64,000 bases of DNA from positions 7,564,001 to 7,628,000 of the forward strand of contig NZ_CP083590.1 in the NCBI RefSeq assembly GCF_020099395.1, given 5' to 3'. This DNA comes from Streptomyces mobaraensis. Lineage in GTDB: Bacteria > Actinomycetota > Actinomycetes > Streptomycetales > Streptomycetaceae. Both the position numbers and the translations under genes were made by a program. The notes beneath the pieces were generated by a model, which was not told where the DNA came from, made no database searches, and was given only the letters and a program-made list of their open reading frames with translations. Positions 10,407 to 35,915 of the stretch are shown in pieces (the stretch's first letter is position 1; each line of letters opens with the position of its first letter).

Positions 10407-13400
10407 CGGTGGACCGCGGCCGCTCCGGGAACCCCGTGCAGGAACCGGTGGCCGTCACCGGCATGGCGGTCGTGCTGCCCGGCGCGGACGACCTGGACCG
10501 CTACTGGCGCAACCTCCGCACCGGCGTGGACGCCGTCACCGAGGTGCCGCCGGGGCGCTGGGACGAGGAGGAGTACCGCTCCGGTGCCGTCTACTGCCGG
10601 CGCGGCGGCTTCGTCGACGACCGGCTCGCCGGCTTCGACCCCGCCGCCTTCGGCATCATGCCGGGCTCCGTCCCGGCCACCGAGCCCGACCAGCTGATCG
10701 CCCTGCGGACGGCCGCCGCCGCGATCGCCGACGCGGGCGGGCTCGCCGCGGTGGATCCCGCACGGGTCGGAGTGGTGCTGGGCCGCGGCGGCTACCTTAC
10801 GCCCGGGCTGGCCCGGCTCGACCAACGCGTCCGCACCGCAGGCCAGTTGGTCCGTACGATGCGGGAGCTGCTGCCCGAGCTCGGCGCGGAGCGGCTGGCC
10901 CGGGTCCGTACCGCCTTCGAGGAGGCCCTCGGGCCGGACAGCCCCGAGGCCGTCATCGGCCTGGTCCCCAACTTCGCCGCCTCGCGCGTCGCCAACCGGC
11001 TCGACCTGCGCGGCCCCGCCTACACGGTCGACGCGGCCTGCGCCTCGTCCCTGCTGGCGGTCGCCCAGGCCGTGGGCGAGCTGACCGCCGGACGCTGCGA
11101 CGTGATGCTCGCCGGAGGCGTGCACCACTGCCACGACGTGACGCTGTGGTCGGTGTTCGCCCGGCTCGGGGCCCTCTCCCCGAGCCAGCGGATCCGCCCC
11201 TTCCACCGGGACGCGGACGGCGTGCTGATGGGCGAGGGCACCGCCGTGCTCGTCCTCAAGCGGCTGGCCGACGCCGTCCGGGCCGGCGACCGGGTGTACG
11301 CGGTGGTCCGGGGCACCGGCGTGGCCGGCGACGGGCGTGCCGCCGCCCTGGTGAACCCGGACCCGGACGGTCAGACGCGGGCGGTCCGGCTCGCCTGGGA
11401 GGCGGCCGGCCTGGATCCCGCCGCGCCCGGCGCGATCGGGCTGCTCGAAGCGCACGGCACCGGAACGCCCAACGGGGACGCGGCCGAAATCACCACGTTG
11501 CGACGGGTGTTCGGCACTCCGCGTGAACCGGACGCGGTCATCGGCTCGGTCAAGTCGATGATCGGCCACACCATGCCCGCGGCGGGCGCCGCCGGCCTGG
11601 TCAAGGCCGCTCTCGCGCTCCACCACCGCGTGCTGCCGCCCACCCTGCACTGCGACGACCCCCACCCCGGGCTGCTCGCCACCCGCTTCCGCCCGTCCCC
11701 GGTGGCCCGCCCCTGGGAGGCCGGTCCCGAGACCGACGTGCGTCGGGCGGGGGTGAACGCCTTCGGCTTCGGCGGCATCAACGCCCATGTGGTGCTGGAG
11801 GAGTTCCGCCCGTCGGTGGGGAAGAGGCGTTCCGCGTCCGCGGGGCTCCGGGTCGACGAGCCCGAACCGGTCCTGCGGCTCGCGGCGGACTCGGCGGAGG
11901 GGCTGCGCGCGCTGCTCGACAGCGAGGACGCCCGGCTGCGTGCCGCGACGGACGCCGGCACCGGAGGCGTCCGGCTGGCCGTGGCCGGGCCCGGAACCGA
12001 CCGTCTCGCCCTCGCCCGTAAAGTGGTCGCCCGCGGCACGGCCTGGGGAGGCCGCCGCGAGGTGTGGTTCGCGCCCAGGCCGCTGCTCGGGCCGGCCGGC
12101 GGCCGTACCGCCTTCCTCTTCCCCGGCCTGGAGGCCGGTTTCACCCCGCAGGGCGAGGACGTCGCCCGCCACTTCGGGCTGCCCCGCCCCACCTGGCAGC
12201 AGGCCCGCGTCGGCGCCGTGGCCGAACACGGCGCCGCCGTCGTCGACCTCGGCCGGCTCCTCGCCACCGCGCTCCGCCGCTGCGGCATCACCCCCGACGC
12301 CCTGGCCGGGCACAGCGTGGGGGAGTGGACCGCCATGGCCGTCGGCGGAATCTTCGCCGACAAGGAAGTCGACGCCTTCCTGAGGGACTTCGACCCCCTG
12401 ACGCTGCGGGTCCCCGACCTGGTCTTCACGGCCTTCGGAGCGCCCGCCGAGCAGGTGGAGGCGGCCATGTCCGGGATCCGCGGCGTGGCCCTCTCCCACG
12501 ACAACGCCCCGCACCAGTCCGTGGCCTGCGGCCCCGCGGCCCAGGTGGAGAAGGTCGCGGAACGGCTGGGCCGCGCGGGTGTGCTCGGCCGTACGCTGCC
12601 CTTCGCGTCCGGCTTCCACACGCCCATGCTGATGCCCTATCTCGGGCCGATCCGGGAGGCGATGCGGCGCTTCGCCCTGCACCGCCCCTCGGTGCCGGTC
12701 TGGTCGGGCACCACCTGCGCACCGTTCCCCGCGCAGGAGGCCGAAATCCGTGAGGTGACGGTACGTCACCTTGTGGAACCGGTCCGATTCCGCGGCCTGG
12801 TCGCATCCCTCCACACGGCCGGGTTCCGGGCCTTCGTCCAGGCGGGCCAGGGCCAGTTGCCCGCCCTCGTCGACGACATCCTCGCCGACCGCGAGCACCT
12901 GGCGGTCACCGTCGGAAGCACCGACGGCGACGGCCTTGGTCCGCTGCGCCGGGCGGCGGCCGGTCTGTGGGCGTACGGGGCGGAACCCGACCTCGCCGCC
13001 CTGGCCCCCGGGGCGGGCCGCTCCGCCGGCACCGTCCCGCTGCCGCCCACGGCACCGGCCCACCCGGGCGTACGGCTCGGCCTGGACGCCGGGCCGGTCC
13101 GTCTCGAACCGGCCACCAGGGACCGGCTGCGGACGGAACTGCGCGCCGCCCTCACCGGTGCGAGAGCGCCCGGTACCGGTCAGCTCGACGCCGCCGCACG
13201 GCGGTTCCCGGAGGCAGCCGAGCTGCGCGCCCTGCTGACCGAGACGGCCGGCACGGCCGCGGCCCTCTTCGCGGCGCACTCCACTCGCGGCGCGGCCGCG
13301 CAGTCCTCCGCCCCCGGCACGCCGGCGCCGGTGGCCGGTCCGGAGTCCGAGGGCGCGACCGGAGACCCCGCCCCCGGCCCGGCCGGGGCGGCCCCCCGGT

Positions 13401-15025
13401 GGCCGGAAGAGGCCCCGTCCGCCGCGGCCGCCCCCGGCGCGGCGTTGCCGCCTCCCGCGCGGACCACCACGCTCAGAGTGGCCCTCGACACCATGCCCTA
13501 CCTCACCGACCACTGCTTCTACCACCAGCGGCCGGACTGGCCCGACATCGGCGACCGCTGGCCCGTCGTCCCCGCGACGACCATGATCCGGCACATGACC
13601 GACGCGGCGGCCGCGTCCGGCGCCGGTGTCACGGTCGCCGTCCGCGGCGCCCGCTTCCTCGCCTGGCTGGTCGCCGAGCCCGCCGTCGACGTGACCATGA
13701 CCGTCCGGAGCGTCCCCGGACGCCCGGGCCGCCACACCGTGGACTTCGGCCCGTACGCGCGCGCCGAGACCGAAACGGCGCCTCGGTACCCGGCGCCGCC
13801 GGCCCGCTGGAGCGTGCCGGCCGGCGAGGAGGCGCCCACCGTGTCCGCCCGGCGCATGTACGACCAGCGCTGGATGTTCCACGGTCCGCTCTTCCAGGGC
13901 GTCACCGCGGTCACCGGACTCGGCGCACGGCACGTCCGGGGCGTGCTCACCGTTCCGCCCGCGCCCGGTGCGCTCCTCGACAGCGCCGGACAGCTCCTCG
14001 GCTACTGGCTGATGGCCACCCGTTCCGACCGCACGGTGGTCCTGCCGGTCGGGATCCGCGAGATCCGTTTCCACGGCCCCGAACCCGCCACCGGCGAGCG
14101 CCTCGACTGCCACGTCCGCATCACCGACCTCACCGAGACCCGGCTGGCGGCGGACGTCCAGCTCAGCCGGCGCGGAACCGTCCGGTGCGAGATCACCGGC
14201 TGGGAGGACCGCCGGTTCGACTCGCCGGCCGCCGCCGACGCCATCCGGCGCAGGCCCGGGGACAGCACCCTCGCCCGGATTCAGCCCGGCGGCTGGCACC
14301 TGGTCTTCGAGCACTGGCCCGACCCTGCCTCCCGTGACCTGGCGATGCGCAACCTGCTGGGCGGTGCCGAACGCGACGCCTACGCGGCCCGCCCGGCGCG
14401 CGGCAGAGCGCAGTGGCTGCTCGGCCGGATCGCCGCCAAGGACGCCGTACGCCACCACCTGTGGCGGCACGGCGCGGGCCCCGTCTTCCCCGCGGAGATC
14501 CGGGTGCGCAACGACGACACCGGCCGGCCGTACGCGGAAGGGGTGCACGGCCGCGAACTGCCGCTCCTCGACCTGTCGCTCGCCCACTGCGCGGAAGCCG
14601 CGGTCGCCCTGGCCCGCCCGTCGGACGCCGCGCCCACGGGCACCGGCCCCGGCATTGGCCCCGGCGTCGGCATCGACATCGAGGAGATCACCGAGCGGCC
14701 GGCGGCCACCCGCGACGCGGTCCTGGCCCCCGGGGAACTCCCGCTCCACGACCGCCTCGGCGGTGACGCGCGCGCCCTCACCCGCTTCTGGACGGCCAAG
14801 GAGGCCGCGGCCAAGGCCGAGGGCACCGGTCTGCACGGCAGGCCGCGCGACTTCCGCGTCACCGCCGCGGACGGGGACCGGATGACGGTCCGCACGCCCT
14901 CCGGCCGTACCCACTCCGTGTCCCTCGCCGAGGTCGGCAACCCGGCGGGCCTGCCGCCCCGCCGCTACGTCGTCGCCTGGACCGAGGACGCCCACCGGCA
15001 GCACCACGAGGAGAGTCCCTCATGA
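10403..15025 (+). CDS. Iterative type I PKS subunit: KS-AT-DH-PPTase
   Basis: The 1540-residue second subunit starts at GTG 10403, overlapping the first subunit's stop (GTGA), so translation is coupled. Ketosynthase at about 10-460 has Cys213 (VDAACASS), EAHGTGT and SVKSMIGHT, so it is a full condensing domain and not a Cys-less chain-length factor. Acyltransferase at about 570-890 has Ser638 in GHSVGEW. Dehydratase at about 1025-1280 has His1037 (LTDH) and Asp1193 (LLDSAGQ). The C-terminal 4'-phosphopantetheinyl transferase has Asp1425 in GIDIEE and WTAKEAAAKAEG. The fused PPTase probably activates the ACPs of the system. With the KR and NPD domains of the first subunit it completes a reductive cycle, as in PUFA synthases and heterocyst glycolipid synthases. 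Confidence 0.93.
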   Translation: MTVDRGRSGNPVQEPVAVTGMAVVLPGADDLDRYWRNLRTGVDAVTEVPPGRWDEEEYRSGAVYCRRGGFVDDRLAGFDPAAFGIMPGSVPATEPDQLIALRTAAAAIADAGGLAAVDPARVGVVLGRGGYLTPGLARLDQRVRTAGQLVRTMRELLPELGAERLARVRTAFEEALGPDSPEAVIGLVPNFAASRVANRLDLRGPAYTVDAACASSLLAVAQAVGELTAGRCDVMLAGGVHHCHDVTLWSVFARLGALSPSQRIRPFHRDADGVLMGEGTAVLVLKRLADAVRAGDRVYAVVRGTGVAGDGRAAALVNPDPDGQTRAVRLAWEAAGLDPAAPGAIGLLEAHGTGTPNGDAAEITTLRRVFGTPREPDAVIGSVKSMIGHTMPAAGAAGLVKAALALHHRVLPPTLHCDDPHPGLLATRFRPSPVARPWEAGPETDVRRAGVNAFGFGGINAHVVLEEFRPSVGKRRSASAGLRVDEPEPVLRLAADSAEGLRALLDSEDARLRAATDAGTGGVRLAVAGPGTDRLALARKVVARGTAWGGRREVWFAPRPLLGPAGGRTAFLFPGLEAGFTPQGEDVARHFGLPRPTWQQARVGAVAEHGAAVVDLGRLLATALRRCGITPDALAGHSVGEWTAMAVGGIFADKEVDAFLRDFDPLTLRVPDLVFTAFGAPAEQVEAAMSGIRGVALSHDNAPHQSVACGPAAQVEKVAERLGRAGVLGRTLPFASGFHTPMLMPYLGPIREAMRRFALHRPSVPVWSGTTCAPFPAQEAEIREVTVRHLVEPVRFRGLVASLHTAGFRAFVQAGQGQLPALVDDILADREHLAVTVGSTDGDGLGPLRRAAAGLWAYGAEPDLAALAPGAGRSAGTVPLPPTAPAHPGVRLGLDAGPVRLEPATRDRLRTELRAALTGARAPGTGQLDAAARRFPEAAELRALLTETAGTAAALFAAHSTRGAAAQSSAPGTPAPVAGPESEGATGDPAPGPAGAAPRWPEEAPSAAAAPGAALPPPARTTTLRVALDTMPYLTDHCFYHQRPDWPDIGDRWPVVPATTMIRHMTDAAAASGAGVTVAVRGARFLAWLVAEPAVDVTMTVRSVPGRPGRHTVDFGPYARAETETAPRYPAPPARWSVPAGEEAPTVSARRMYDQRWMFHGPLFQGVTAVTGLGARHVRGVLTVPPAPGALLDSAGQLLGYWLMATRSDRTVVLPVGIREIRFHGPEPATGERLDCHVRITDLTETRLAADVQLSRRGTVRCEITGWEDRRFDSPAAADAIRRRPGDSTLARIQPGGWHLVFEHWPDPASRDLAMRNLLGGAERDAYAARPARGRAQWLLGRIAAKDAVRHHLWRHGAGPVFPAEIRVRNDDTGRPYAEGVHGRELPLLDLSLAHCAEAAVALARPSDAAPTGTGPGIGPGVGIDIEEITERPAATRDAVLAPGELPLHDRLGGDARALTRFWTAKEAAAKAEGTGLHGRPRDFRVTAADGDRMTVRTPSGRTHSVSLAEVGNPAGLPPRRYVVAWTEDAHRQHHEESPS

Positions 15026-15342
15026 CCACCACCCCCACGCCCGACGCCGTCACCCCCCTCCCCGGGACCGACGAGAGCGCCGTCCTCGCCGAGCTCACGG
15101 AGGCCCTGCACGCCGTCATCCCCGAACTCGCGCTGGAGAGCACGCCCGTCACCATGGAGACCCGCTTCGTCGAGGACCTCGACCTGGAGTCCATCGACCT
15201 GGTCACCCTCACCGCCGAACTGGGGCGCCGCTACGGCGACCGGGTCGACTTCCCGGCCTTCTTCGCCTCCCTCGAACTCACCGAGGTCATCGAGCTCTCC
15301 GCCGGGCGGCTGGTCCGGTACGTCGCAGGGCGTACGAGGTGA
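15022..15342 (+). CDS. Free-standing acyl carrier protein
   Basis: The 106-residue acidic protein has the carrier motif DLDLESIDLV with the phosphopantetheine serine at residue 57, in a four-helix-type ACP of usual size preceded by a loose 18-residue N-terminal tail. The ATG at 15022 overlaps the PKS stop (ATGA). A discrete ACP next to a megasynthase with a single internal ACP could load a starter, carry the finished chain to the hydrolase, glycosyltransferase or methyltransferase, or supply extra carrier capacity. The fused PPTase immediately upstream is the likely activating enzyme. Confidence 0.92.
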   Translation: MTTTPTPDAVTPLPGTDESAVLAELTEALHAVIPELALESTPVTMETRFVEDLDLESIDLVTLTAELGRRYGDRVDFPAFFASLELTEVIELSAGRLVRYVAGRTR

Positions 15343-16127
15343 CGACGGCCCGCCGCCCGCGCCTCAACGTCGCCCGCGTCGGACCACCCGGCGGGACCAC
15401 CGCCGTCCTGGTCCACGGCATCGCCACCGACAACCTGACCAGCTACTACTTCACCGTGGCCGCGGCGCTCGCCGAGGCCGGACACGACGTGGTGATGTAC
15501 GACCAGCGTGGCCACGGCCGCAGCGAACGCCCCGCCGCCGGCTACCGGCTGGAGGACTTCACGGGCGACCTCGCCGCCCTCGTCGACGGCCTGGACACCA
15601 CCGGTCCCGTCCACCTGGTCGGGAACTCCTTCGGCGGCACCGTCGCCTTCGACTACGCCCTGAGCCACCCCGACCGCGTCGCCGGCCTCGTCGTCGTGGA
15701 GTCCGAGCCGCCCACCGCGGCCTGGGCCGCGAAGATGAGCGGCATCCTCGCGGACTCCGCGGGCAGCCTCCACGACGCGCGCGCCCTGCCCTGGATCGAG
15801 CGGAACTACGGCCGGCACTCGGCCCGGCTGGTCCGCCAGGCCCGCCCGCTGCTGCGGGAGACGACGATCGCCGCCGACATCGCGGCCAGCCGGATCCCCA
15901 CCGAGGAACGCTGGCGGGAGCTCGACCTGCCCGTCCTCGCGGTGTACGGCAGCACCTCCGACCTCGCCGGCACGGCACCGTGGCTGGAGTCCCTGCTCCC
16001 CGACTGCCGCACCCACCGGATCGCGGGCCACGGCCACTCCGTCCTCGTGAACGCCCCCCGGGCCGTCGGGACGCTCCTGCTCGACTGGATCCGCGACGGT
16101 CACCGGGCGAAGGCGGCGCGCGTATGA
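15339..16127 (+). CDS. Alpha/beta hydrolase, possible chain-releasing thioesterase
   Basis: The 262-residue alpha/beta-hydrolase has an oxyanion-region HG (VLVHGIATDN), nucleophile elbow GNSFGG with Ser97, an Asp after the strand VLAVYGSTSD, and the late GHGHS histidine. GTG at 15339 overlaps the ACP stop. Its place directly after the ACP in a coupled operon suggests it releases or edits the acyl chain, a role often taken by such type II thioesterase-like hydrolases. A hydrolase acting on the glycosylated or methylated product cannot be excluded. Confidence 0.85.
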   Translation: MTTARRPRLNVARVGPPGGTTAVLVHGIATDNLTSYYFTVAAALAEAGHDVVMYDQRGHGRSERPAAGYRLEDFTGDLAALVDGLDTTGPVHLVGNSFGGTVAFDYALSHPDRVAGLVVVESEPPTAAWAAKMSGILADSAGSLHDARALPWIERNYGRHSARLVRQARPLLRETTIAADIAASRIPTEERWRELDLPVLAVYGSTSDLAGTAPWLESLLPDCRTHRIAGHGHSVLVNAPRAVGTLLLDWIRDGHRAKAARV

Positions 16128-17344
16128 GGCGGCCGAGGCGATTCCTCTTCGTCGTGCCGCCGCTCGTCGGACACGTCAACCCGGCCGTCGCGGTGGCCAC
16201 CGAACTCACCCGGCGCGGACACCGGGTCGCCTGGGCCGGTCTCCCCGGGCCCGTCGGGGACCTGGCCGGACCCGGCGCCGAGATCCACCCCTGTGACGCA
16301 CCCCGCGACCTCCACCGGCCGCCCGATCTGCGCGGGGCCGCCGCACTGCGCTTCCTGTGGCAGGACTTCCTCGTCCCGCTCGCCACGGCGATGGCGCCCG
16401 GGGTCGAACGGGCGGCCGCCGTCTTCCGCCCGGACGTGATCGTCGCCGACCAGCAGGCACTTGTCGGCGCCCTGACGGCCGAGCGGCTCGGCATCCCCTA
16501 CGCGACCTCCGCCACCACCTCCGCCGAGTTCTCCGCCGTCCTCGCCGGAATGCCGAAGGTGGCGGAATGGATCCACGGACTGCTGGCCGGACTGCGCGCC
16601 ACGCTCGGCGACCCGGCACGCACCCACGACCTCCGCTTCTCGCCCGACCTCGTCCTCGCCTTCACCACCACCGCCCTGGCGGACGGGTGCGCCGCGCCCC
16701 CGCAGACCCGCTTCGTGGGGCCCGCCCTCGCCCGGCGGTCCGACACGGCGCCCTTCCCCTGGGAGCGGCTCGACCCGGCACGGCACACCGTCCTGGTGTC
16801 CCTCGGCACCGCCAACACCGACCTCGGCGGCCGGTTCCTCACCGAGTGCGCGGCGGCCGTACGGGACCGCTCGCCGCGCCTCCAGGCCGTCGTCGCCGAC
16901 CCGGGCGGGGCGCTCGCCGGCACCTCGGACGACACGGTGCTGGCCGTGCCGAGCATGCCGCAACTCGCCCTGCTGCGGCGGGCGTCGGCGGTCGTCTGCC
17001 ACGCCGGGCACAACACCGTCGCGGAGTCCCTGCTGCACGGGGTGCCCCTGGTCGTCGCCCCCATCCGGGACGACCAGCCCGTGATCGCCGCACAGGTCAC
17101 CGCGGCCGGTGCCGGGATCCGGATCCGGTTCGGCCGCGGCGACCGCCAGGTGATCGGCGCCGCACTGGACGCCGTGCTCACCGAGCCCGGGTACCGCGCG
17201 GCCGCCCACCGCGTCCGGGACTCCTTCCGCGCCGCGGGAGGCGCCGCCGCGGCCGCCACGCACCTCGAAGAGGCCGCCGTACGTTGGGCGGAAGCCGAGC
17301 CCACCCCTGCCCCCACCCGACGAGGAGAACCGGGAAGACCATGA
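16124..17344 (+). CDS. GT1-family glycosyltransferase
   Basis: The 406-residue protein has the GT-B fold layout of UDP-glycosyltransferases and macrolide glycosyltransferases. The N-terminal acceptor half opens FLFVVPPLVGHVNPAVAVA. The donor-binding half carries HAGHNTVAESLLHGVP and then a VVAPIRDDQPV segment, the usual place of nucleotide-sugar contacts. ATG at 16124 overlaps the hydrolase stop (ATGA). It probably transfers a sugar to a hydroxyl of the synthase product, making a glycolipid-like molecule. There are no deoxysugar genes nearby, so a common cellular nucleotide sugar is likely. Confidence 0.9.
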   Translation: MRRPRRFLFVVPPLVGHVNPAVAVATELTRRGHRVAWAGLPGPVGDLAGPGAEIHPCDAPRDLHRPPDLRGAAALRFLWQDFLVPLATAMAPGVERAAAVFRPDVIVADQQALVGALTAERLGIPYATSATTSAEFSAVLAGMPKVAEWIHGLLAGLRATLGDPARTHDLRFSPDLVLAFTTTALADGCAAPPQTRFVGPALARRSDTAPFPWERLDPARHTVLVSLGTANTDLGGRFLTECAAAVRDRSPRLQAVVADPGGALAGTSDDTVLAVPSMPQLALLRRASAVVCHAGHNTVAESLLHGVPLVVAPIRDDQPVIAAQVTAAGAGIRIRFGRGDRQVIGAALDAVLTEPGYRAAAHRVRDSFRAAGGAAAAATHLEEAAVRWAEAEPTPAPTRRGEPGRP

Positions 17345-18405
17345 ACCGGACCCAGGAGGTAGACCGGCTCCGTGCCGATTACCAACGTGAACTCGCCCTC
17401 GGCACCGACCGCTTCCACGAACCGAGACGCACCACCTGCCCCTGGTGCGGCTCCTCCCGCCTGCGCACCCGCCTGCGCACCGTCGACCTGCTCCAGCACA
17501 AGCCCGGCACCTTCGTGGTCGACCAGTGCCGCGCCTGCTCCCACTCCTTCCAGAACCCCCGGCTCACGCCCGAGGGACTGGACTTCTACTACCGGGACTT
17601 CTACGACGGCCTGGGAGCCGAGCAGGCGGCGTGGATCTTCGACAGCAAGGGCAGCCGCAGGCGCTACCTCGCCAGTGCCCGCGCCCTCCTCCCGTTCGGC
17701 ACGCCCCGCCGCTGGCTGGACGTCGGCACCGGGCACGGGCACTTCCCGCGGACGGCCGCGACGGTCCATCCGGCCACCGACTTCGACGGCCTCGACGTCG
17801 GCGAAGGAGTCAAGGAGGCCCGGCGCCAGGGCCGGATCGCCGAGGCGCACCGCGGCCTCCTCACCGAGCTCGCCCCCAAGCTGGAGGGCACGTACGACAC
17901 GGTGAGCATGTTCCACTACCTGGAGCACACCACCGACCCGCGCGCGGAACTGACCGCCGCCCGTACGGCCCTCGCCCCCGGCGGGCACCTGATCGTCGAG
18001 GTCCCGGACCCGGAGTGCCTGGCGAGCGCGGTCCTGGGCCGCTGGTGGTTCCCGTACTTCCAGCCCCAGCACCTGCACCTCATGCCGCTCGCCAACCTCC
18101 GCCGCGAGCTGGGAGCACTCGGCTACACCGTCGTCGCCGTCGAACGACAGGAACCGCACATCCCGTTCGACTTCACCGGCGCCGCGCTCCTCGCCCTCGC
18201 GCACGCCCTGCCGCCCGCCGACGACCCCTGGCGCGCCACCCCGCCCAGCAATCTCCAGCGGAGGGCCCGTACGGCCCTGTTCTGGTCGGCCGTGCCCGTG
18301 CTGGCCGGTGTGTACGGCGCGGAACAGCTGCTCGCGCCGCTCCTCCGCCGGACGCGGCTCTCCAACGCGTACCGCGTCGTGGCACGCGCCGGGGCCGCGG
18401 CCTGA
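17341..18405 (+). CDS. Zinc-ribbon class I SAM methyltransferase
   Basis: The 354-residue protein has an N-terminal zinc ribbon (Cys33, Cys36, Cys63, Cys66 as CPWC and CRAC), then a Rossmann methyltransferase domain with SAM motif LDVGTGHGHFPR near residue 122 and a SMFHYLEHTTDP segment typical of Methyltransf_23-type enzymes. The C-terminus has a hydrophobic stretch (ALFWSAVPVLAGVYG) that may touch the membrane or bind lipid. ATG at 17341 overlaps the glycosyltransferase stop; it is the last gene of the coupled operon. It likely O- or C-methylates the sugar or chain; members of this ribbon family often act in sugar modification. Confidence 0.88.
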   Translation: MNRTQEVDRLRADYQRELALGTDRFHEPRRTTCPWCGSSRLRTRLRTVDLLQHKPGTFVVDQCRACSHSFQNPRLTPEGLDFYYRDFYDGLGAEQAAWIFDSKGSRRRYLASARALLPFGTPRRWLDVGTGHGHFPRTAATVHPATDFDGLDVGEGVKEARRQGRIAEAHRGLLTELAPKLEGTYDTVSMFHYLEHTTDPRAELTAARTALAPGGHLIVEVPDPECLASAVLGRWWFPYFQPQHLHLMPLANLRRELGALGYTVVAVERQEPHIPFDFTGAALLALAHALPPADDPWRATPPSNLQRRARTALFWSAVPVLAGVYGAEQLLAPLLRRTRLSNAYRVVARAGAAA

Positions 18406-26730: not shown

Positions 26731-27876
26731 TCATGCGGGCTCGGCCATCAGCCGGTGGCAGGAATCGACCAGCGGGTACGCCACGTGGTGGCGCCGCGCC
26801 CGTTCCAGGCGGACGATCGCCACCGAGGTCTCGACGAGCGTCCGGCACCGTCGCGCGCGCCGGCCGGCGAACGCCCGGAGCGCCGCGCCGACGGACTCGT
26901 GCCGCACGAGCTCCCGGGCCAGCACGAGCCCGTCCTCGACGGCCAGGGCGGTGCCGCCGGCCGTCTGCGGTGCGGGCGCGTGCGCCGCGTCGCCGATCAG
27001 CACGCTGTTGCCCCGGTTCCAGGCGCCCGCCACGAGCATGGTCAGCACCGGGCGGCGCACCACCGATTCCGACGTGGACACCAGGGCGCGGATCTCCTCC
27101 ACCCGGCCCGGGAAGGGGGCCAGCAATCGCCGCAGGCGCGGGGCGAGTTCGGCGTCGGGCAGGACGCTCCGCTCGGCACCGTTCTCCGTGTTCTCCGTGT
27201 TCTCCGTCAGGAACACGTACGCCTGCCCGTCCGAGAGGGGCACGAGACCGGCGGCGCCGGCCTTCCCCGCGAACTGGTGGATCCCGGTGGCCCACGGCGG
27301 GCGTGGTACCAGAGCCCGCCAGACCACCTGCCCGTGACAGCCGGGCGAGGTCTCCAGCCCCAGCAGACCCCGTGTCGTCGAGCGGATCCCGTCCGCGCCC
27401 ACCAGCAGCGCGGCTCGCCGTGCCGTCCCGTCCGACAACCGTACGCGGACCGGTTCCCGCTCCGGATCCACCGCGGTGACGGTCACTCCGTGGCGGACCA
27501 CCACACCGCGCCGCTCGGCTTCCGCGCGCAGGACGCCGTGCAGTGCGGGACGGGCGATACCGGCCATGGCCGGCCGCCGCGCACCGATCAGGCGCGGCAA
27601 CCGGACCTCACCCACGGGCTCACCGCGCACGTCCACACGCGTGATCGTGCTCATGCCGTAGCCCTCGGCCAGACACGTGTCCGCGAGACCCAGCGCGTCC
27701 AGCGCGCGCAGCGAAGGGCCGGTGAGGCACAGCCCCCAACCGGAAGCCGCCTCCGGCGGTCCGGCCTCGGCGATCTCCACCTGCCATCCCTCGCGTGCCA
27801 GGGCGGTGGCCGCTGCCAGACCGGCCACGCCCGCACCCACGATCACGGCCGTCCGCGCATCGCGACAGTTCTCCAT
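26731..27876 (-). CDS. FAD-dependent aromatic hydroxylase-type monooxygenase
   Basis: The 381-residue group A flavoprotein monooxygenase has a GxGxxG motif at the N-terminus (VIVGAGVAGLAAATAL), the middle DG motif (GADGIRSTTRG) and the GD motif binding FAD ribose (LIGDAAHAPAPQTAGG). Family members hydroxylate aromatic or polyketide rings with NAD(P)H. ATG at 27876 is chosen because GGAGG lies nine bases upstream; longer in-frame extensions lack this. Oddity: a 9-bp unit repeated three times at 27181-27207 encodes ENTENTEN in a surface loop. It is divergent from the PLP decarboxylase, 320 bp apart. Confidence 0.9.
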   Translation of the reverse strand: MENCRDARTAVIVGAGVAGLAAATALAREGWQVEIAEAGPPEAASGWGLCLTGPSLRALDALGLADTCLAEGYGMSTITRVDVRGEPVGEVRLPRLIGARRPAMAGIARPALHGVLRAEAERRGVVVRHGVTVTAVDPEREPVRVRLSDGTARRAALLVGADGIRSTTRGLLGLETSPGCHGQVVWRALVPRPPWATGIHQFAGKAGAAGLVPLSDGQAYVFLTENTENTENGAERSVLPDAELAPRLRRLLAPFPGRVEEIRALVSTSESVVRRPVLTMLVAGAWNRGNSVLIGDAAHAPAPQTAGGTALAVEDGLVLARELVRHESVGAALRAFAGRRARRCRTLVETSVAIVRLERARRHHVAYPLVDSCHRLMAEPA

Positions 27877-28196
27877 GTACGTACGCCTCCAGAACGCCGA
27901 TTCCCTCCGGAACCGTAGGGCGCGTCGGCCCTCCGCCTTATCCGAATCGGGCGACGGCCGTCCGCTGTCGGCAAGCGGCCCCCGGACACCCCGGGGCATG
28001 CGGGGAGTTGGCCCCCCGCGCGCAAGCAACAGGGGCACGGCGCACCGCCATCGGACGGGGGCCGGGGAGCGCGTCACGGCGCACATACACCCGGGATGCG
28101 CTTCCCCCGTTCGGGTGAGACCGCGGACGAGGGCCGCGCGTCCGGAGGGGCCGTGGCTACCGTGGCCCGGTCGGGCTGTGGCGCTGGGGGGCGGAC
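27877..28196. other. Intergenic divergon, 320 bp
   Basis: Space between the divergent FAD monooxygenase and PLP decarboxylase starts. It should hold both promoters. Open frames crossing it are continuations of neighbouring frames with no protein-like content, and I see no clear palindromic operator. Confidence 0.4.
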
Positions 28197-29609
28197 GTGG
28201 AGCTGAAACGGTGGCTGGCGTACGGGGTCGAGGCGTTCGAGGCGTGGACCCGGTCGTACGAGGAGTACACGGCCCACCCGGCCATGGAGGTCACCGAGGA
28301 CGCCTGCGCCGAGGCGTTCGCCGAACTGGCCGGCAGGCTGCGCGGCAGCTACCCGTTCTTCCACCCCTGCTACGCGGGACAGATGCTCAAGCCCCCGCAT
28401 CCGGCCGCCGTCGCCGGATACCTCGCCGCGATGCTCGTCAACTCCAACAACCACGCGCTGGACGGCGGCCCCGCCACCTCCGCCCTGGAGGAGGAGGCCG
28501 TCGCTCAACTGGCCTCCATGCTGGGCCTGGGGGAGACCTTTCTCGGGCATCTCACCAGCAACGGCACCCTGGCGAACCTGGAGGCGCTGTTCGTCGCCCG
28601 GGAGAGCCGGCCCGGACGTTCCGTCGCGGTCGGTGCCGAAGCCCACTACACCCACGCGCGGATGTGCCACCTGCTGGGCGTGCGGGTGCGCACCGTGCCG
28701 GCCGACGGCGCGGGACGGATGGACGTGGGGGCTCTGGAGCGGCTGCTCGCCTCGGGGGACGTGGGCACCGTCGTCGTCACCACCGGCACCACGGCGCTGG
28801 GCGCGGTCGACCCCGTGCACCGCGTCGTGCCGCTGGCGCGGCGGTACGGTGCCCGCGTCCATGTGGACGCCGCCTACGGCGGGTTCTTCACGCTGCTCAC
28901 CGACGACCCGCTCCTCGACGAGGACACCGCCGACGCGCTCCGGGCCGTCGGCCGGTGCGACTCGGTGGTGATCGACCCGCACAAGCACGGCCTCCAGCCC
29001 TACGGCTGCGGCGCGGTCCTCTTCGCCGACCCCACGGTGGCCCGCTTCTACCGGCACGACTCTCCCTACACCTACTTCACCTCCGCCCGGCCGCACCTGG
29101 GCGAGATCAGCCTGGAGTGCTCACGGTCGGGAGCCGCCGCGGCCGCCTTGTGGCTGACGCTCCGGCTGCTGCCGCTCACCCGGCAGGGGCTGGGCGGAGT
29201 GCTCGCCGCAGGGCGCCGGGCGGCCCTCCGATGGGCCGATCTGATCGCCGCCACGCCCCACCTGGAGCTCTACCAGCGGCCCGAGCTCGACATCATGACG
29301 TACCACCCGCGCACCGAACCCGCCGCTCTGTCCCGCATCGGCACCGCGTCGCGAGAGGTCATGCGGCGCGGCATGGAAGTCCGCCGCATGGAAGCCCGCG
29401 GCATGGATGCCAAAGAAGCCAAGGAGACCCCCGTCTTCCTCAGCGTCGCACGGGTCGACGCGGACGCCTTCACCCGGCGCCACCCGCACGTCGTACGCGA
29501 TGACGAGGACACGCACGTCCTGCGCAGCGTCCTGATGAAACCGGAGAGCGAGCCGTACCTGGACCGCCTGCACCACCGCGTCGCGGACCTCGCGAAGCCG
29601 GCGGAGTGA
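28197..29609 (+). CDS. PLP-dependent group II amino acid decarboxylase
   Basis: The 470-residue fold-type I PLP enzyme of the aromatic/acidic amino acid decarboxylase family has HPCYAGQMLKPPHP at 52-65, the NSNNHALDGGPATSALEEE block, THARMCHLLGV, VHVDAAYGGFFTLL (Asp of HVDAAYGG pairing with the pyridine nitrogen) and VVIDPHKHGLQPYG with Lys263 as the Schiff-base lysine. GTG at 28197 follows a G-rich site. Near the C-terminus a 15-bp unit is repeated three times (29367-29411), giving RGMEV-RRMEA-RGMDA. The substrate is not deducible; diaminobutyrate, glutamate/aspartate and aromatic acids are all used in the family. It sits 393 bp before a gene carrying a second such domain. Confidence 0.9.
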   Translation: MELKRWLAYGVEAFEAWTRSYEEYTAHPAMEVTEDACAEAFAELAGRLRGSYPFFHPCYAGQMLKPPHPAAVAGYLAAMLVNSNNHALDGGPATSALEEEAVAQLASMLGLGETFLGHLTSNGTLANLEALFVARESRPGRSVAVGAEAHYTHARMCHLLGVRVRTVPADGAGRMDVGALERLLASGDVGTVVVTTGTTALGAVDPVHRVVPLARRYGARVHVDAAYGGFFTLLTDDPLLDEDTADALRAVGRCDSVVIDPHKHGLQPYGCGAVLFADPTVARFYRHDSPYTYFTSARPHLGEISLECSRSGAAAAALWLTLRLLPLTRQGLGGVLAAGRRAALRWADLIAATPHLELYQRPELDIMTYHPRTEPAALSRIGTASREVMRRGMEVRRMEARGMDAKEAKETPVFLSVARVDADAFTRRHPHVVRDDEDTHVLRSVLMKPESEPYLDRLHHRVADLAKPAE

Positions 29610-30002
29610 CCGCCCGCGAGAACGACGACGGCCGGTACGGCGGCATCGTCCGCGACAGGCATCGCCCGGCACCGCCGTGGAGTTCGCCGTCGGCTTCCCC
29701 ATGGCCGTCCACCGGGAAGAGACCCGTCCGACCATGGAGTCGCCTCATATGCCGCCGGGACCCTCCGGGGCGTTCGACCGGGACCGCCGCGCCACGGTGC
29801 GCCGTATACGGCGTCTCCAAGTGCCTGGTGCGCGAACTCCTCCAGGACACCTTGGAGCGTGAGACGACGCACCGGGAGGCCCAGCGGCGAGATCGCCGTC
29901 ATCACGGCAGCCTGTGCGAGCGGTGCGCACCCGCCGGTGCCTCCCGCACTCCCGCACTCCTGCGCGCCCACTCGCCCAGCACCCGTCCCGGGAAGGAGCA
30001 CC
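29610..30002. other. Intergenic, 393 bp, no convincing gene
   Basis: It lies between two same-strand genes. A 42-codon frame (ATG near 29732) exists but has no ribosome site and an arginine/proline-rich product. The 3' end carries AAGGAG just before the GTG at 30003. A promoter for the fusion gene may lie here, since the gap is long for an operon. Confidence 0.4.
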
Positions 30003-32894
30003 GTGCACCAACGACTGAACGGTCGCGCCGGCGACGGCGGGCCGGCCACGGAGCACACCGGAGACATCGAGGGGATCGACGCCGACACCGGCCGGGAGCT
30101 GCTGGACGGCCTGCTCGACGAGGCCGTGTGGCTGGACCACTGCGCGTTCGTCAGCGCGTCGTTCGGCCCGGCACCGGCCTGGCTGCGCCATGAACCGGTG
30201 TCCGCGTTCCGGCCGTTGCCCGTGCCGCCGCCCGCGTCCGCGAGCCTCCGGGGCACGCCAGGGCGGCGACGTGTGTGCGTCTCGTTCGCGCCCGAGCACG
30301 GCCCCAACGCCCGTACCTGGGCCCGTACCCACGGCTACCGGCTGCTCGCGCCGGACGCCGGGGTGACCGCCTGGGCGGCGGACAAGATCAGCGTGCTGGA
30401 GCTGTTCGGGGAAGCGGGAGTGGCCACCCCGCCGTGCGTGGTCGTCCCCGCGACCGGCCGGGCACCGGCGCGGGCGTACTGGCACGACGACTGGCCCGGG
30501 GCCGTGGCCCAGCGCAGGGAGAACAACCTGATCGGACGGGGCACCGCCCCGCTCGCCTCCCCGGCCGACCTCGACCGCCGCCTCGCCGGCTGGCCGGACG
30601 AGCCGGTCCGGCTCAGCCGCCGGGCTCCCGGGATCTCCCTGACCGTCACGGCCTGCGCCGGACCGGACAGGACCGTCGTCTCGGCCGTCTCCCACCAGCT
30701 GGTGGGACTGCCCGAACTCGCCGCCTCCTGGGGCACACACTGCGGCAACCAGCTCGTCCACCCCGGCGATCTGCCGGACGGGTTGTACGGACAGGCCCGC
30801 GAGGCGGCGCGGCGCGTGGGCGAGGTGCTGCGGGGCCGCGGCTTCCGGGGCGTCTTCGGACTCGACCTCGTCGAAGAGGACGGCAGGCTCCTGGCCGTCG
30901 AGGTCAACCCCCGCTTCCAGACCGTGGTCTCCCTCGTCCAGGCCGCCGAACGCGCGGCGGGACTCCTGCCCACGCTGGGGCTGCACATCCTCTCCTTCCT
31001 CCTGCCCGCGCTGCCGCCGTCCGTGCCGGGGACGCTGCCGTCGGAACCGTGCCGTCCGAGCCAACTCGTCGTCCATGCCGCTGAGGACACCACGCTGCAC
31101 GGCCTTGCTCCCACCGGGCGTTACCGGCGTGCCGGCCGAGTTGTGACAGGCCCGCTCGCCGCGCCCGCGGACCTGACCGAACTCCACGACGACGAGGCCC
31201 TGTACTGGGCGGTCGCCCGTCCGGGACCGGTCGCGGCCGGCCAGGAGCTGGCCCTGCTCCAGTTCCGGCACCCCGTCGCCCCGCTCGAACCTCGGCCCCG
31301 CCTCCACCCGGAGGCACGGGAGTGGATTTCCTCCTTCCACGGCCTGTCGTGGACAGAAGAGGAGGAAGAGAAGGAAGAGGCCACGACGCCCCTGCTCCGG
31401 CTGCCCGAGGGGCCGATGCGCACGGCGGGCCTCCACGCCCTCGACCTCATCATCGAGCGGTTCACCACCTCCCGCGCGCGCCCGCCGCTGTGCGTCCCGT
31501 CCCCCGACGAGCTACGGGCCGTCCTGGACGAACCCCTGCCCGAGAGCGGCACGGACGACCTGTGCGCCCTCCTCGAACGCGTCACCCGTGACGCCCTCGG
31601 CCAGGCCACCCGCCTGGACCACCCCCGGAGCTTCGTCTTCACCCCGGCCACCGGCAACTTCCCGGCCGTCCTCGCCGACGCCCTCGCCTCCGCCTACCTC
31701 TCCGTCCCCGGGGCGTGGCTGGTCGGCGCGGGACCCACCCAGCTCGAACTCACCACGCTCGACTGGCTCAAGGCACTCCTGGGCCTGCCCGAGGAGGCCG
31801 GCGGTCTGTTCGTCAGCGGCGGCTCCGTCGCCAACCTCACCGCCCTGGCCGTCGCGCGCGACCACCACCTCAGCGACGACCGCTCCCGCGCCCGCCTCTA
31901 CTGCTCCACCCAGGCCCACCCCTCCGTCGCCCGCGCCGCGCACCTCCTGGGCCTCACCCGCGGGCACCTCTCCGTCGTACCGGCCGACCGCGCCCTGCGG
32001 CTCGACCCGGCGGAGGTCGCGCGGCGCGTCACCGGCGACCGCGGCGCCGGCCTGCGCCCCTTCGCCGTCGTCGCCACCCTCGGCACCACCGGCACCGGCG
32101 CCGTCGACCCCCTCGACGACCTCGCCGACCTCTGCGAACGGGAAGGACTCTGGCTCCACGTCGACGGCGCCCACGGCGCGGCGGCGGCCGCCACCGCCCG
32201 CGGCCACGGGCTGCGCACGGGACTGCGCCGCGCCGACTCCCTCACCGTCGACCCGCACAAATGGCTCTTCCAGCCATACGAGATCGGATGCGTCCTCCTA
32301 CGCCGCCCGGAACTGCTGCGCGCCACCTTCGACCTGGCACGCCACACCCTGGACAGCGGCTACCTGGCCCCCACCTTCCCCCGGGGCGACGAGGTGAACC
32401 TCTCCGACCACGGCCCCCAGCAGAGCCGCGGACTCCGGGCCCTGAAGCTGTGGCTGTCGTTGAAGACCTTCGGCGCGGGAGCCTTCCGGCAGGCGATCGA
32501 GCACGGCATGGACCTGGCCGAGCACGCGGCGGCCCTGATCACGGACCGGCCCGAGCTGACGCTGGTCACACCGGCCAGCCTCGCCGTCCTCACCTTCCGC
32601 TACCACCCGGCCGACGCCCCGCCCGGCTGGGACGCCGACGCCGCACAGGAGGACATCAGCCGGGCGGTGTGCGCGGAAGGCGAGGCGCTGCTCCTCACCA
32701 CCCGGGTGCACGGCGCCACGGTGCTGCGCATGTGCACCGTCAACCCCGGCAGCACCCGGGACGATGTCGCGTACGTACTCCATCAGGTGGTCCGCCACGG
32801 CCGCCGGTCGGTGGCTGCGTTCAGAGAGTCGACGGGCGCGCTCGCGGAGTCGTCGGGCGTGCTCAGAGAATCGCCAGCGTCGAAGGACCGGTGA
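30003..32894 (+). CDS. Fusion: ATP-grasp ligase + PLP-dependent decarboxylase
   Basis: The 963-residue two-enzyme fusion starts at GTG 30003 behind AAGGAG. Residues about 80-400 form an ATP-grasp domain: a DKISVLELFGEAGVATPP start of the carboxylate-binding part, ending in GFRGVFGLDLVEEDG and LAVEVNPRFQ, where Glu300 and Asn302 are the metal-binding pair. A small C-terminal lid-like part follows (to about 445), then an acidic linker WTEEEEEKEE. Residues about 490-930 form a complete group II decarboxylase: LFVSGGSVANLTAL, STQAHPSVARAAHLLG, GTTGTGAVDPLDDL, WLHVDGAHGAAAA, and VDPHKWLFQPYE with PLP lysine Lys753. The ATP-grasp half would join a carboxylate to an amine (or another nucleophile); the PLP half would decarboxylate an amino acid that may be the amine donor or the ligation product. 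The last 32 bp overlap a convergent gene. Confidence 0.88.
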   Translation: MHQRLNGRAGDGGPATEHTGDIEGIDADTGRELLDGLLDEAVWLDHCAFVSASFGPAPAWLRHEPVSAFRPLPVPPPASASLRGTPGRRRVCVSFAPEHGPNARTWARTHGYRLLAPDAGVTAWAADKISVLELFGEAGVATPPCVVVPATGRAPARAYWHDDWPGAVAQRRENNLIGRGTAPLASPADLDRRLAGWPDEPVRLSRRAPGISLTVTACAGPDRTVVSAVSHQLVGLPELAASWGTHCGNQLVHPGDLPDGLYGQAREAARRVGEVLRGRGFRGVFGLDLVEEDGRLLAVEVNPRFQTVVSLVQAAERAAGLLPTLGLHILSFLLPALPPSVPGTLPSEPCRPSQLVVHAAEDTTLHGLAPTGRYRRAGRVVTGPLAAPADLTELHDDEALYWAVARPGPVAAGQELALLQFRHPVAPLEPRPRLHPEAREWISSFHGLSWTEEEEEKEEATTPLLRLPEGPMRTAGLHALDLIIERFTTSRARPPLCVPSPDELRAVLDEPLPESGTDDLCALLERVTRDALGQATRLDHPRSFVFTPATGNFPAVLADALASAYLSVPGAWLVGAGPTQLELTTLDWLKALLGLPEEAGGLFVSGGSVANLTALAVARDHHLSDDRSRARLYCSTQAHPSVARAAHLLGLTRGHLSVVPADRALRLDPAEVARRVTGDRGAGLRPFAVVATLGTTGTGAVDPLDDLADLCEREGLWLHVDGAHGAAAAATARGHGLRTGLRRADSLTVDPHKWLFQPYEIGCVLLRRPELLRATFDLARHTLDSGYLAPTFPRGDEVNLSDHGPQQSRGLRALKLWLSLKTFGAGAFRQAIEHGMDLAEHAAALITDRPELTLVTPASLAVLTFRYHPADAPPGWDADAAQEDISRAVCAEGEALLLTTRVHGATVLRMCTVNPGSTRDDVAYVLHQVVRHGRRSVAAFRESTGALAESSGVLRESPASKDR

Positions 32895-33390
32895 TCTCCC
32901 GCACTCCCCGTGCCGTGGTGCACGCCGGCACGTCGAGTGTGAGCTGGACCCCGGGAGAGGCGACGGTCCGCCCCCGGAACGCGCCCGAGACCACCTTGCC
33001 GACCACCAGCACGACCGCCTGGCCGGCCACCTGCTGGACAGCCCCCATGGGATAGATCACCACGCTCTTCGCCCCGTTCCTCCAGGTGATCTTCTCCACC
33101 GTGGTGGCATCCGAGGCGAAGCACCCGTTCACACCGCCGCCGCTGATCACGGACGTGGCGGAGGCGAATCCCGGGTGGGCGGACGGACAGGTGTAGACGC
33201 CCGTCCCGGAGATCCGGGTCCTTCTCGCCTGGAGGCCGAGCCCCGGGGAGAACCCGACGGTGTTGGTCCCGACGCAGCTGACGGCCGCTGCCGCCCCCTG
33301 CGCCTCCACCGTGGCCGGCCCGGCCGCCATCATCCCCACGGCCAAGGCCGCACCCCCGCACCTCATCACCCACGACCTCGCCCGGCGCAT
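32863..33390 (-). CDS. Secreted protein of unknown function
   Basis: The 175-residue protein starts at ATG 33390 behind GGGAGGG. It has a signal peptide (MRRARSWVMRCGGAALAVGM, then MAAGPATVEAQGA) and a mature part with cysteines in VSCVGTN, GVYTCPS, VNGCFAS and VPACTT, four in all, suggesting two disulfides. The mature region is rich in Gly, Thr and Val with beta-strand patterns, like small secreted Streptomyces proteins of unknown role. It is convergent with, and overlaps by 32 bp, the ATP-grasp/decarboxylase fusion. Confidence 0.75.
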   Translation of the reverse strand: MRRARSWVMRCGGAALAVGMMAAGPATVEAQGAAAAVSCVGTNTVGFSPGLGLQARRTRISGTGVYTCPSAHPGFASATSVISGGGVNGCFASDATTVEKITWRNGAKSVVIYPMGAVQQVAGQAVVLVVGKVVSGAFRGRTVASPGVQLTLDVPACTTARGVREITGPSTLAIL

Positions 33391-34470: not shown

Positions 34471-35088
34471 ATGGACGTTTTGCGGCACCTCACCGCCCAT
34501 CTGGGACTCGACCTCGCGGCCGTCTGCCTGCTGACCTTCCGCATCTACCATCCGCGCCACGGGCGCCGGGACCTCGTCCCGCCCCTACTGGCGCTGAACG
34601 TCGGGCTGTTCACCGTCGTCCACGTCCTCGCCGCGACGGGGGGCGGCCACGGCGGGACCTCGCTGGGGCTCGGGCTGTTCGGCGTGCTGTCCCTGGTCAG
34701 GCTGCGGTCCGACGCCGTTCAGCAGGAGGAGGTCGGCTACTACTTCACCGCGATGGTCCTCGGCCTGCTCTGCGCGCTGCCGCACCTCTCGCTCCTGACG
34801 GCCGCGGCGCTCAGCGCCGTCCTGCTGCTCGTCGTCCACGCCGCGGACCACCCACGCCTGTTGGCCGGATCGCGCCGGGCCCTGGTCACCCTGGACACCG
34901 CGCACGGCGACCCCGACACTCTGCGGGCCGACCTCGCCCGAAGGCTCGGCGAGCCCGTGCACTGGGCGGTGCTGAACGTCGACTACGTCCGGGACCTGAC
35001 CGTCGTCGACGTGCGGTACCGCGAGCCCCTGCCGGCGCTCCCCGGGGTGAACGCGCACCGCGCCCAGCCCGTCGGCGAGGCGGCGTGA
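34471..35088 (+). CDS. DUF4956 membrane protein
   Basis: The 205-residue protein has three or four N-terminal membrane helices (VCLLTFRIYHPRHGRR, PPLLALNVGLFTVVHVLAAT, AMVLGLLCALPHLSLLTAAA) and a soluble C-terminal domain from about residue 130. It contains the family hallmark LFGVLSLVRLRSDAVQQEEV. ATG at 34471 follows AAGGGGG. DUF4956 genes typically sit beside VTC-domain polyphosphate polymerase-like genes, as here; the pair shares a GTGA overlap. The role in the pair is not established; a membrane partner for polyphosphate or an analogous polymer is inferred. Confidence 0.9.
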   Translation: MDVLRHLTAHLGLDLAAVCLLTFRIYHPRHGRRDLVPPLLALNVGLFTVVHVLAATGGGHGGTSLGLGLFGVLSLVRLRSDAVQQEEVGYYFTAMVLGLLCALPHLSLLTAAALSAVLLLVVHAADHPRLLAGSRRALVTLDTAHGDPDTLRADLARRLGEPVHWAVLNVDYVRDLTVVDVRYREPLPALPGVNAHRAQPVGEAA

Positions 35089-35915
35089 GCGGCATCGGAC
35101 AGATGGCGACGCTATCGGCCGGCGTCCGCGGCATCCGGGCCGCCGCCGACGCCGCCTCCCCCGTCTCCCTCACCGAACTCAACGCACGCGCCGGGCTCCT
35201 CACCCGCTTCGACCGCTCCTACCTGCTCCCCACGGAGGTCTTCCTGCGGCTGGCCGAACGGCTGACGGACCCGCGGCGCCCCGGCGGCCCCTTCCGCGCC
35301 CTGACGATCGACGGGCGGCGCGCCTTCCGCTACCACTCCGTCTACTACGACACTCCGGGACTCCGCTCCTTCCACGACCACCGCCAGGGCCGCAGACTCC
35401 GGTTCAAGATCCGTGAGCGGGTGTACGAGGACTCGGGCGAGCGGCAGTTCGAGATCAAGCTCAAGGGACGGCGCGGCGACACCGTCAAACACCGCAGCGC
35501 CCTGACGGACGGCGCCGGCCCGCTCGACGCCCGCCACCGCTCCTTCCTCGCGGGCACGCTGCGCCGCGCCTACGGCATCGAACCCCCCGCCGCGCTCACC
35601 CCGTCCGTCACCACGGACTATCTGCGCACCACCCTGGTGGCCGACGGCGAGCGCGTCACCTGCGACGCCGGGCTGGTCTGCGGCGATCTGCGGACAGGGC
35701 GGACGGTGCACTGCGACACGGACCTCGTCCTCGTCGAGACCAAGTCGGCCGGCCATCTCACCGACGCGGACCGGCTGTTGCACTCCTACGGGGAGCGCTC
35801 TGCGACCTTCACCAAGTACTGCGGCGGGCTCGCGGCCCTGCGCCCGGGCCTGCCCGCCAACCAGTGGCGCCGCGCCGCACGCCGAGCGTTCGGGGCCGCC
35901 TACGGGCCCCACTGA
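35085..35915 (+). CDS. VTC-domain protein (polyphosphate polymerase-like)
   Basis: The 276-residue cytosolic protein has the tunnel-fold VTC/CYTH-like features: RFDRSYLLP, HSVYYDTPGLRSFHDH, RLRFKIRERVY, ERQFEIKLKGRRG and a late LVETKSAG, the basic and acidic residues expected to line the polymer tunnel and bind metal. Yeast Vtc4 makes polyphosphate from ATP using this domain; bacterial stand-alone VTC proteins are assumed similar. GTG at 35085 overlaps the DUF4956 stop (GTGA); ATG at 35103 is an alternative. A CotH kinase gene, often present in such loci, is absent. Confidence 0.88.
   Translation: MSGIGQMATLSAGVRGIRAAADAASPVSLTELNARAGLLTRFDRSYLLPTEVFLRLAERLTDPRRPGGPFRALTIDGRRAFRYHSVYYDTPGLRSFHDHRQGRRLRFKIRERVYEDSGERQFEIKLKGRRGDTVKHRSALTDGAGPLDARHRSFLAGTLRRAYGIEPPAALTPSVTTDYLRTTLVADGERVTCDAGLVCGDLRTGRTVHCDTDLVLVETKSAGHLTDADRLLHSYGERSATFTKYCGGLAALRPGLPANQWRRAARRAFGAAYGPH

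Follow-up and report, generated by a model that had tools for sequence, protein, structure and literature searches.

An ATP-grasp ligase fused to a group II decarboxylase in Streptomyces mobaraensis, a candidate two-step enzyme for aromatic amides

A 64,000-nucleotide stretch of the Streptomyces mobaraensis genome (contig NZ_CP083590.1, positions 7,564,001 to 7,628,000; hereafter the window) carries a GTG-initiated gene whose frame stays open across 963 codons and encodes one protein with an N-terminal ATP-grasp domain and a C-terminal group II decarboxylase dependent on pyridoxal 5′-phosphate (PLP). Pfam places ATP-grasp_3 (PF02655) at residues 209–307 (27.5 bits; cut-off 23.2) and Pyridoxal_deC (PF00282) at residues 501–867 (180.6 bits; cut-off 27), and the coding score of the gene, 302, is the highest among genes called from 15 to 64 kb of the window. 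Upstream of the GTG at 30003 the frame remains open to another GTG at 29859; the former is matched, by alignment, by a GTG at the equivalent position in three relatives (L006, L004, L007). A first-pass annotation, made from the letters alone, had described a 963-residue protein with these two domains, and the open frame, the Pfam matches and 40 homologues confirm that the fusion protein exists. The features it singled out—E300 and N302 of EVNPR, K753 of DPHKW and an acidic run at residue 452—lie at the positions it gave.

These homologues come from a protein search with the fusion in which the 7991 candidates sharing most words with it were scored, and which returned 82 proteins with E no higher than 1e-3. 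Forty of them are full-length fusions (P0002–P0041, 920–989 residues, P0002 being the window's own protein), covering 95–100% of the query at 67–100% identity, and the next-ranked matches are lone decarboxylases. Because 40 full-length homologues exist, an overlooked stop or a frameshift in between the two parts—an artefact that the annotation had flagged as fatal to its reading—is ruled out. Named sources are Streptomyces, Crossiella, and records labelled Streptoverticillium reticulum and Streptosporangium nondiastaticum; many of the Streptomyces species names presumably belong to the old Streptoverticillium group. In plasmid records (72,556; E 1e-40) no place covered 80% of the fusion, the best match being a lone S. 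clavuligerus decarboxylase.

To see how the two parts are arranged elsewhere, we used a genome scan that found 400 relatives, the best 80 of which were kept and gave 77 loci (L004–L080). Both parts are present at 35 places: the window, 16 fused loci (L004–L019) and 18 split loci (L020–L023, L025, L026, L028–L032, L034, L035, L039, L042, L044, L046, L062). Loci outside this set have the decarboxylase alone, at a contig edge in L024 and L027. Wherever the parts are split (18 of 18 loci), the gene for the ligase immediately precedes that for the decarboxylase, both on one strand. In 16 of these loci the two genes would overlap, by 4, 7 or 8 nucleotides (nt), from a possible decarboxylase start; L020 and L039 have gaps of 3 nt and 5 nt, respectively. 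The order ligase–decarboxylase is hence kept in 35 of 35 loci, a set selected for both parts, and the separate forms are adjacent and clearly homologous rather than always apart and unrelated, the other outcome the annotation had feared. We built a maximum-likelihood tree from 26 of these loci (9 of the 17 fused, 17 of the 18 split), omitting rows below 230 bits for the ligase or 380 bits for the decarboxylase, L020 included, as well as those that duplicated a database protein exactly. A single, fully supported branch sets the nine fusions apart, and Crossiella is placed within them. Since the split genes adjoin or overlap and the fusions occupy a single branch, an adjacent gene pair, probably translationally coupled, was turned into one protein, probably once; the position of Crossiella inside the fused group suggests transfer.

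The ATP-grasp half keeps K128, R171, N174, N175, D288, E300, N302 and R304 in 40 of 40 fusions, among them what we take to be the ATP-binding lysine (K128) and the metal-binding residues (D288, E300, N302). Its best solved relative is BesA (PDB 8yi6; E 4.6e-7), by name an L-propargylglycine–L-glutamate ligase and so akin to the predicted role of this half, but the similarity is confined to 43 profile positions around the metal site, and the BesA model NF042917 gives 18.4 bits against a cut-off of 750. A carboxylate–amine ligase function is likely.

The two parts also keep company across genomes. Of 392 Streptomyces genomes sampled, eight have the ligase, and in seven of these the decarboxylase is fused to it (window genome, G035, G219, G303) or encoded beside it (G073, G113, G135); several of these genomes apparently overlap the 35 loci, and the two samples are not independent. 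Among 396 genomes across the phylum, the window genome was the sole match. Around the eighth ligase (G345) no decarboxylase lies within the 19.5 kb fetched, the search in that genome being limited to this stretch; the motif of this ligase reads AVGINPRF (consensus AVEINPRF, window AVEVNPRF), the metal-binding glutamate being lost. Four separate ligases (P0186, P0198, P0200, P0201) likewise have glycine in its place. The G345 copy (L115, ~10141–11640, minus strand) may be decaying or repurposed.

The decarboxylase half has PDB 4obu as its closest solved relative (E 6.3e-78, 266 bits; second-best 186 bits), aligned over 403 residues with the loop tyrosine and the PLP lysine retained. We take 4obu/4obv to be the Ruminococcus gnavus tryptophan decarboxylase, an aromatic enzyme; unlike the fusion, it is a 490-residue decarboxylase without a ligase part. 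K753, the PLP lysine, and Y787, which pairs with the tyrosine of 4obu and is presumably the catalytic loop tyrosine, are each present in at least 97% of 108 aligned relatives. Among NCBIfam models the diaminobutyrate decarboxylase RhbB (NF052646) ranks first, at 221.3 bits against a cut-off of 900, and the aspartate decarboxylase PanP gives 141 bits. After W572 hydrophobic residues are commonest (WLVG), with some rows reading WLE; the position of this motif in 5o5c, from desferrioxamine biosynthesis, reads WDQ.

Table 1. Features at and around the fusion gene in the window.
Feature	Position	Strand	Basis and remarks
FAD_binding_3 monooxygenase, divergent neighbour, operon membership uncertain	26731..28086	-	
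DEC1, second PLP decarboxylase, 470 residues	28197..29609	+	PF00282 92.7 bits; upstream gene of operon
C1 remnant (pseudogene), SfmD/TyrH-like heme hydroxylase (putative)	29606..29990	+	DNA alignment, two profile pieces, 46 bits; limits approximate
AG-DEC fusion, 963 residues	30003..32894	+	Open frame, Pfam, homologues, coding score
ATP-grasp part, ~residues 1-450, K128/D288/E300/N302 conserved	30003..31352	+	PF02655 209-307; outer limits approximate
Linker region with acidic run	31326..31412	+	ATP-grasp stop and decarboxylase start fall here in separate homologues
Group II PLP decarboxylase part, ~residues 465-935, K753/H752/loop Y787	31395..32807	+	PF00282 501-867; 4obu match E 6.3e-78
SEC, small protein, signal-peptide-like N terminus (by eye), predicted beta-barrel	32863..33390	-	Convergent with fusion

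Upstream of the fusion, DEC1 belongs to a family found in 17 of the 35 loci. In relatives the C1 gene separates DEC1 from the fusion; 18 of the 35 loci have it intact, and the fused loci L005, L009, L014, L017 and L019 lack it. Seven loci show a 4-nt overlap of DEC1 with C1, and in L005 and L017, where there is no C1, an overlap of this length is shared by DEC1 and the fusion itself. C1 matched no model in the copies of Pfam and NCBIfam that were scanned (a protein database assigns PF27188), while its profile finds SfmD at E 2.4e-30 and heme-dependent tyrosine hydroxylase at E 4.6e-18, and its predicted fold (mean predicted local distance difference test score 86.7) has SfmD ranked first by two methods. 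Two histidines and a cysteine are invariant in 16 aligned C1 sequences, matching H...HxxxC, presumably the SfmD heme-binding pattern. C1 is thus a putative SfmD/TyrH-like heme-dependent aromatic hydroxylase; it shares fold and residue pattern with these enzymes but, unlike them, sits with decarboxylases and a ligase. SfmD and TyrH are described as heme-dependent aromatic oxygenases of saframycin and of lincomycin and anthramycin, respectively (PMC11791213).

Which enzyme fills each role varies between loci. Of the 18 with C1, 12 have DEC1, four have a canonical aromatic-amino-acid decarboxylase instead (L022, L023, L025, L031) and L039 and L021, the latter on a contig that starts within C1, carry neither; when two of the four canonical enzymes were searched against solved structures, tyrosine and DOPA (3,4-dihydroxyphenylalanine) decarboxylases topped both lists. 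In L029, which lacks C1, an HpaB-type 4-hydroxyphenylacetate 3-hydroxylase gene overlaps the end of the decarboxylase gene. Because different families fill the phenol hydroxylase and aromatic decarboxylase roles, we read this exchange as the strongest pointer to a tyrosine-derived amine.

Two other hydroxylases were considered for the window. A C1-like match at 6.817 Mb of the same genome was set aside, being a TyrH-like gene in a non-ribosomal peptide synthetase (NRPS) cluster, with VOC-like and gamma-glutamyltransferase-like neighbours (labels by eye), and probably serving another pathway. That cluster (6.808–6.827 Mb) also has an ATP-grasp-like gene, labelled by eye as was the hydroxylase, and resembles pathways starting from L-DOPA. 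For the divergent FAD monooxygenase as a replacement for C1, phmmer found no match at the other 34 loci. A defence role was rejected: PADLOC reports nothing for the fusion and only weak SspA/DndA matches for DEC1. Elsewhere in the genome, at 1.128 Mb, a decarboxylase relative survives as a fragment (44% identity across 158 residues) and is probably a pseudogene.

At 25 of the 35 loci SEC neighbours the ligase and decarboxylase parts, overlapping the ligase start in L014 and L030, and it is unmatched in ten, some of them on short contigs; its family was found in only 19 of 150 Streptomyces genomes, and its C terminus varies between groups. The predicted fold had no Foldseek match under E 0.001, the top row being a permuted fluorescent protein (a barrel of allene-oxide-cyclase/dirigent type was compared). 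In eight regions fetched around SEC relatives elsewhere (SEC called in seven; neighbours judged by eye from their first 110 residues), no common partner was found.

Our preferred reading, in which we place about as much belief as doubt, is that the fusion is a two-step enzyme forming arylethylamides without an NRPS. From a free aromatic amino acid, of the class of tyrosine, DOPA or tryptophan, the C-terminal PLP domain would form an arylethylamine by decarboxylation. The ATP-grasp domain at the N terminus would activate a carboxylate, probably that of an amino acid, as an acyl phosphate and join it to this amine. If the amide is formed on that nitrogen, decarboxylation would have to come first and ligation second, since the PLP aldimine needs a free alpha-amine. 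At many Streptomyces loci C1 and DEC1 may supply or modify the aromatic unit, taking tyrosine through DOPA to dopamine, and the product may be handled by SEC, the small, presumably secreted barrel. The annotation had proposed that the amine is channelled between decarboxylation and an amide-forming step: a functional link between the activities is supported, since even where unfused the two genes adjoin and mostly overlap, whereas its suggestion of a polyamine conjugate has lost ground, the tyrosine-type heme hydroxylase, the aromatic decarboxylases of four loci and the HpaB of one favouring an aromatic amine.

The two-step logic has a precedent in methanofuran biosynthesis, where the L-tyrosine decarboxylase MfnA makes tyramine and MfnD joins it to glutamate, giving gamma-glutamyltyramine (PMC8141765). 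There, as would be the case for the fusion, a PLP decarboxylase step is followed by an amide-forming ligase step, but MfnA and MfnD are separate proteins, whereas here the two parts are fused, with a second decarboxylase and a family of heme hydroxylases among the genes nearby. By NCBIfam cut-offs neither half belongs to those families: the window protein gives 88.9 bits with the MfnA model TIGR03812 (cut-off 299.4) and is not listed at E 0.001 for the MfnD model NF040722 (cut-off 400), for which the P. humisilvae ligase gives 13 bits. MfnD, too, is presumably an ATP-grasp enzyme. Fungal E-64 clusters resemble the fusion in pairing an ATP-grasp enzyme with a PLP decarboxylase in an NRPS-free amide pathway, and differ in being fungal with separate proteins (Cp1B, the ATP-grasp enzyme; Cp1C, the decarboxylase; Cp1D); removing the decarboxylase reportedly left metabolites unchanged in the heterologous host (PMC12568646).

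Several observations weigh against the arylethylamide reading. Having no close characterised relative, the ATP-grasp half does not have its substrates fixed by homology, and RhbB as top NCBIfam model leaves a non-aromatic substrate possible for the other half. The window's C1 has a long internal deletion and a broken frame, HpaB matched at none of the other 34 loci, and 15 of 35 loci have neither C1, a C1 wreck nor HpaB in the stretch covered (L009, L026, L042 and L044 among them with one or both flanks under 2 kb), so hydroxylation cannot be the core step. DEC1 occurs without C1 in, for example, L005, L017, L019 and L028, and Lentzea-type loci, Saccharothrix, Crossiella and S. orinoci have only the ligase, the decarboxylase and SEC among the families sought.

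Insects make N-beta-alanyldopamine, and by analogy the fused decarboxylase might instead form a small product that is not aromatic, either an amine or an amino acid (beta-alanine from aspartate, GABA (gamma-aminobutyric acid) or diaminopropane) that the ligase couples to an aromatic amine from C1 and DEC1. This would account for two decarboxylases, a hydroxylase and a single ligase at many loci, and fits the scores with RhbB (221 bits) and PanP (141 bits); with 4obu as the best solved match, mostly hydrophobic residues after W572 (some WLE notwithstanding) and Lentzea-type loci that lack a second decarboxylase or hydroxylase in the stretch covered, we find it possible but doubtful. The two activities may also have been fused within one pathway without channelling, the decarboxylase making an amine and the ligase joining other members of that pathway. 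Separate genes suffice in 18 of 35 loci, and a fusion is by itself no proof of channelling, but we regard this as unlikely given the invariant order and adjacency in the set selected for both parts and the loss of the metal-binding glutamate in the single ligase found without a nearby decarboxylase.

Three further ideas turn on what lies outside the enzyme. That the ATP-grasp half modifies a protein, perhaps SEC, linking an amine to one of its carboxylates before export, would suit the proximity of SEC to the pair, its overlap with the ligase start at two loci and its narrow distribution; yet SEC looks exported, so that an ATP-dependent modification would need to precede export, its C terminus differs by group, ten loci have no SEC match and SEC relatives occur elsewhere without the enzyme, making this very unlikely. 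Catecholamine-amide chemistry occurs in insect cuticle, and lignanamides in plants; that the locus is a bacterial counterpart, with hydroxylase, aromatic decarboxylase and fused enzyme making a catecholamine amide inside the cell and a secreted dirigent-like barrel guiding its oxidative coupling or deposition outside, is an analogy we offer as a long shot. A catecholate, iron-binding and siderophore-like amide with SEC as its binding protein seems scarcely probable: C1 or HpaB would imply catechol formation and SEC is a predicted barrel, but no siderophore gene was recognised among the neighbours annotated, which are part of all neighbours. These include two solute-binding proteins, SBP_bac_8 in L021 and SBP_bac_5 in L029, and an MFS transporter in the window.

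Other features were seen in passing. A set of three small secreted-looking proteins lies near the ligase–decarboxylase genes in each of L022 (6625–7495), L029 (8951–9814) and L031 (6573–7421), the two tested having no Pfam match, and a weak AurF-like protein (24.5 bits; cut-off 29.6) lies 3′ of the decarboxylase in one Lentzea (L062, 12726–13397). In the window, a DUF4956 protein adjoins a VTC-domain protein (34471–35915, plus strand), and no RNA element reached its gathering threshold from 26 to 36 kb. At 3417–18405 (plus strand), one large open reading frame with nitronate-monooxygenase-like, KS, AT and KR domains adjoins another large one with KS, AT, dehydratase and phosphopantetheinyl transferase domains, followed by hydrolase, glycosyltransferase and methyltransferase genes; it looks like a polyunsaturated-fatty-acid-synthase-like or iterative polyketide synthase cluster.

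The annotation knew of no described enzyme with this pairing, and our search of titles and abstract openings, with few subscription papers, found no description of such a fusion or operon. If the arylethylamide reading is true, some Streptomyces and their relatives would possess a compact route to aromatic amides, undescribed in the literature searched. A natural fusion of amine-forming and amide-forming activities would be a ready-made biocatalyst, and the coexistence of fused and unfused forms would allow asking whether fusion improves channelling.
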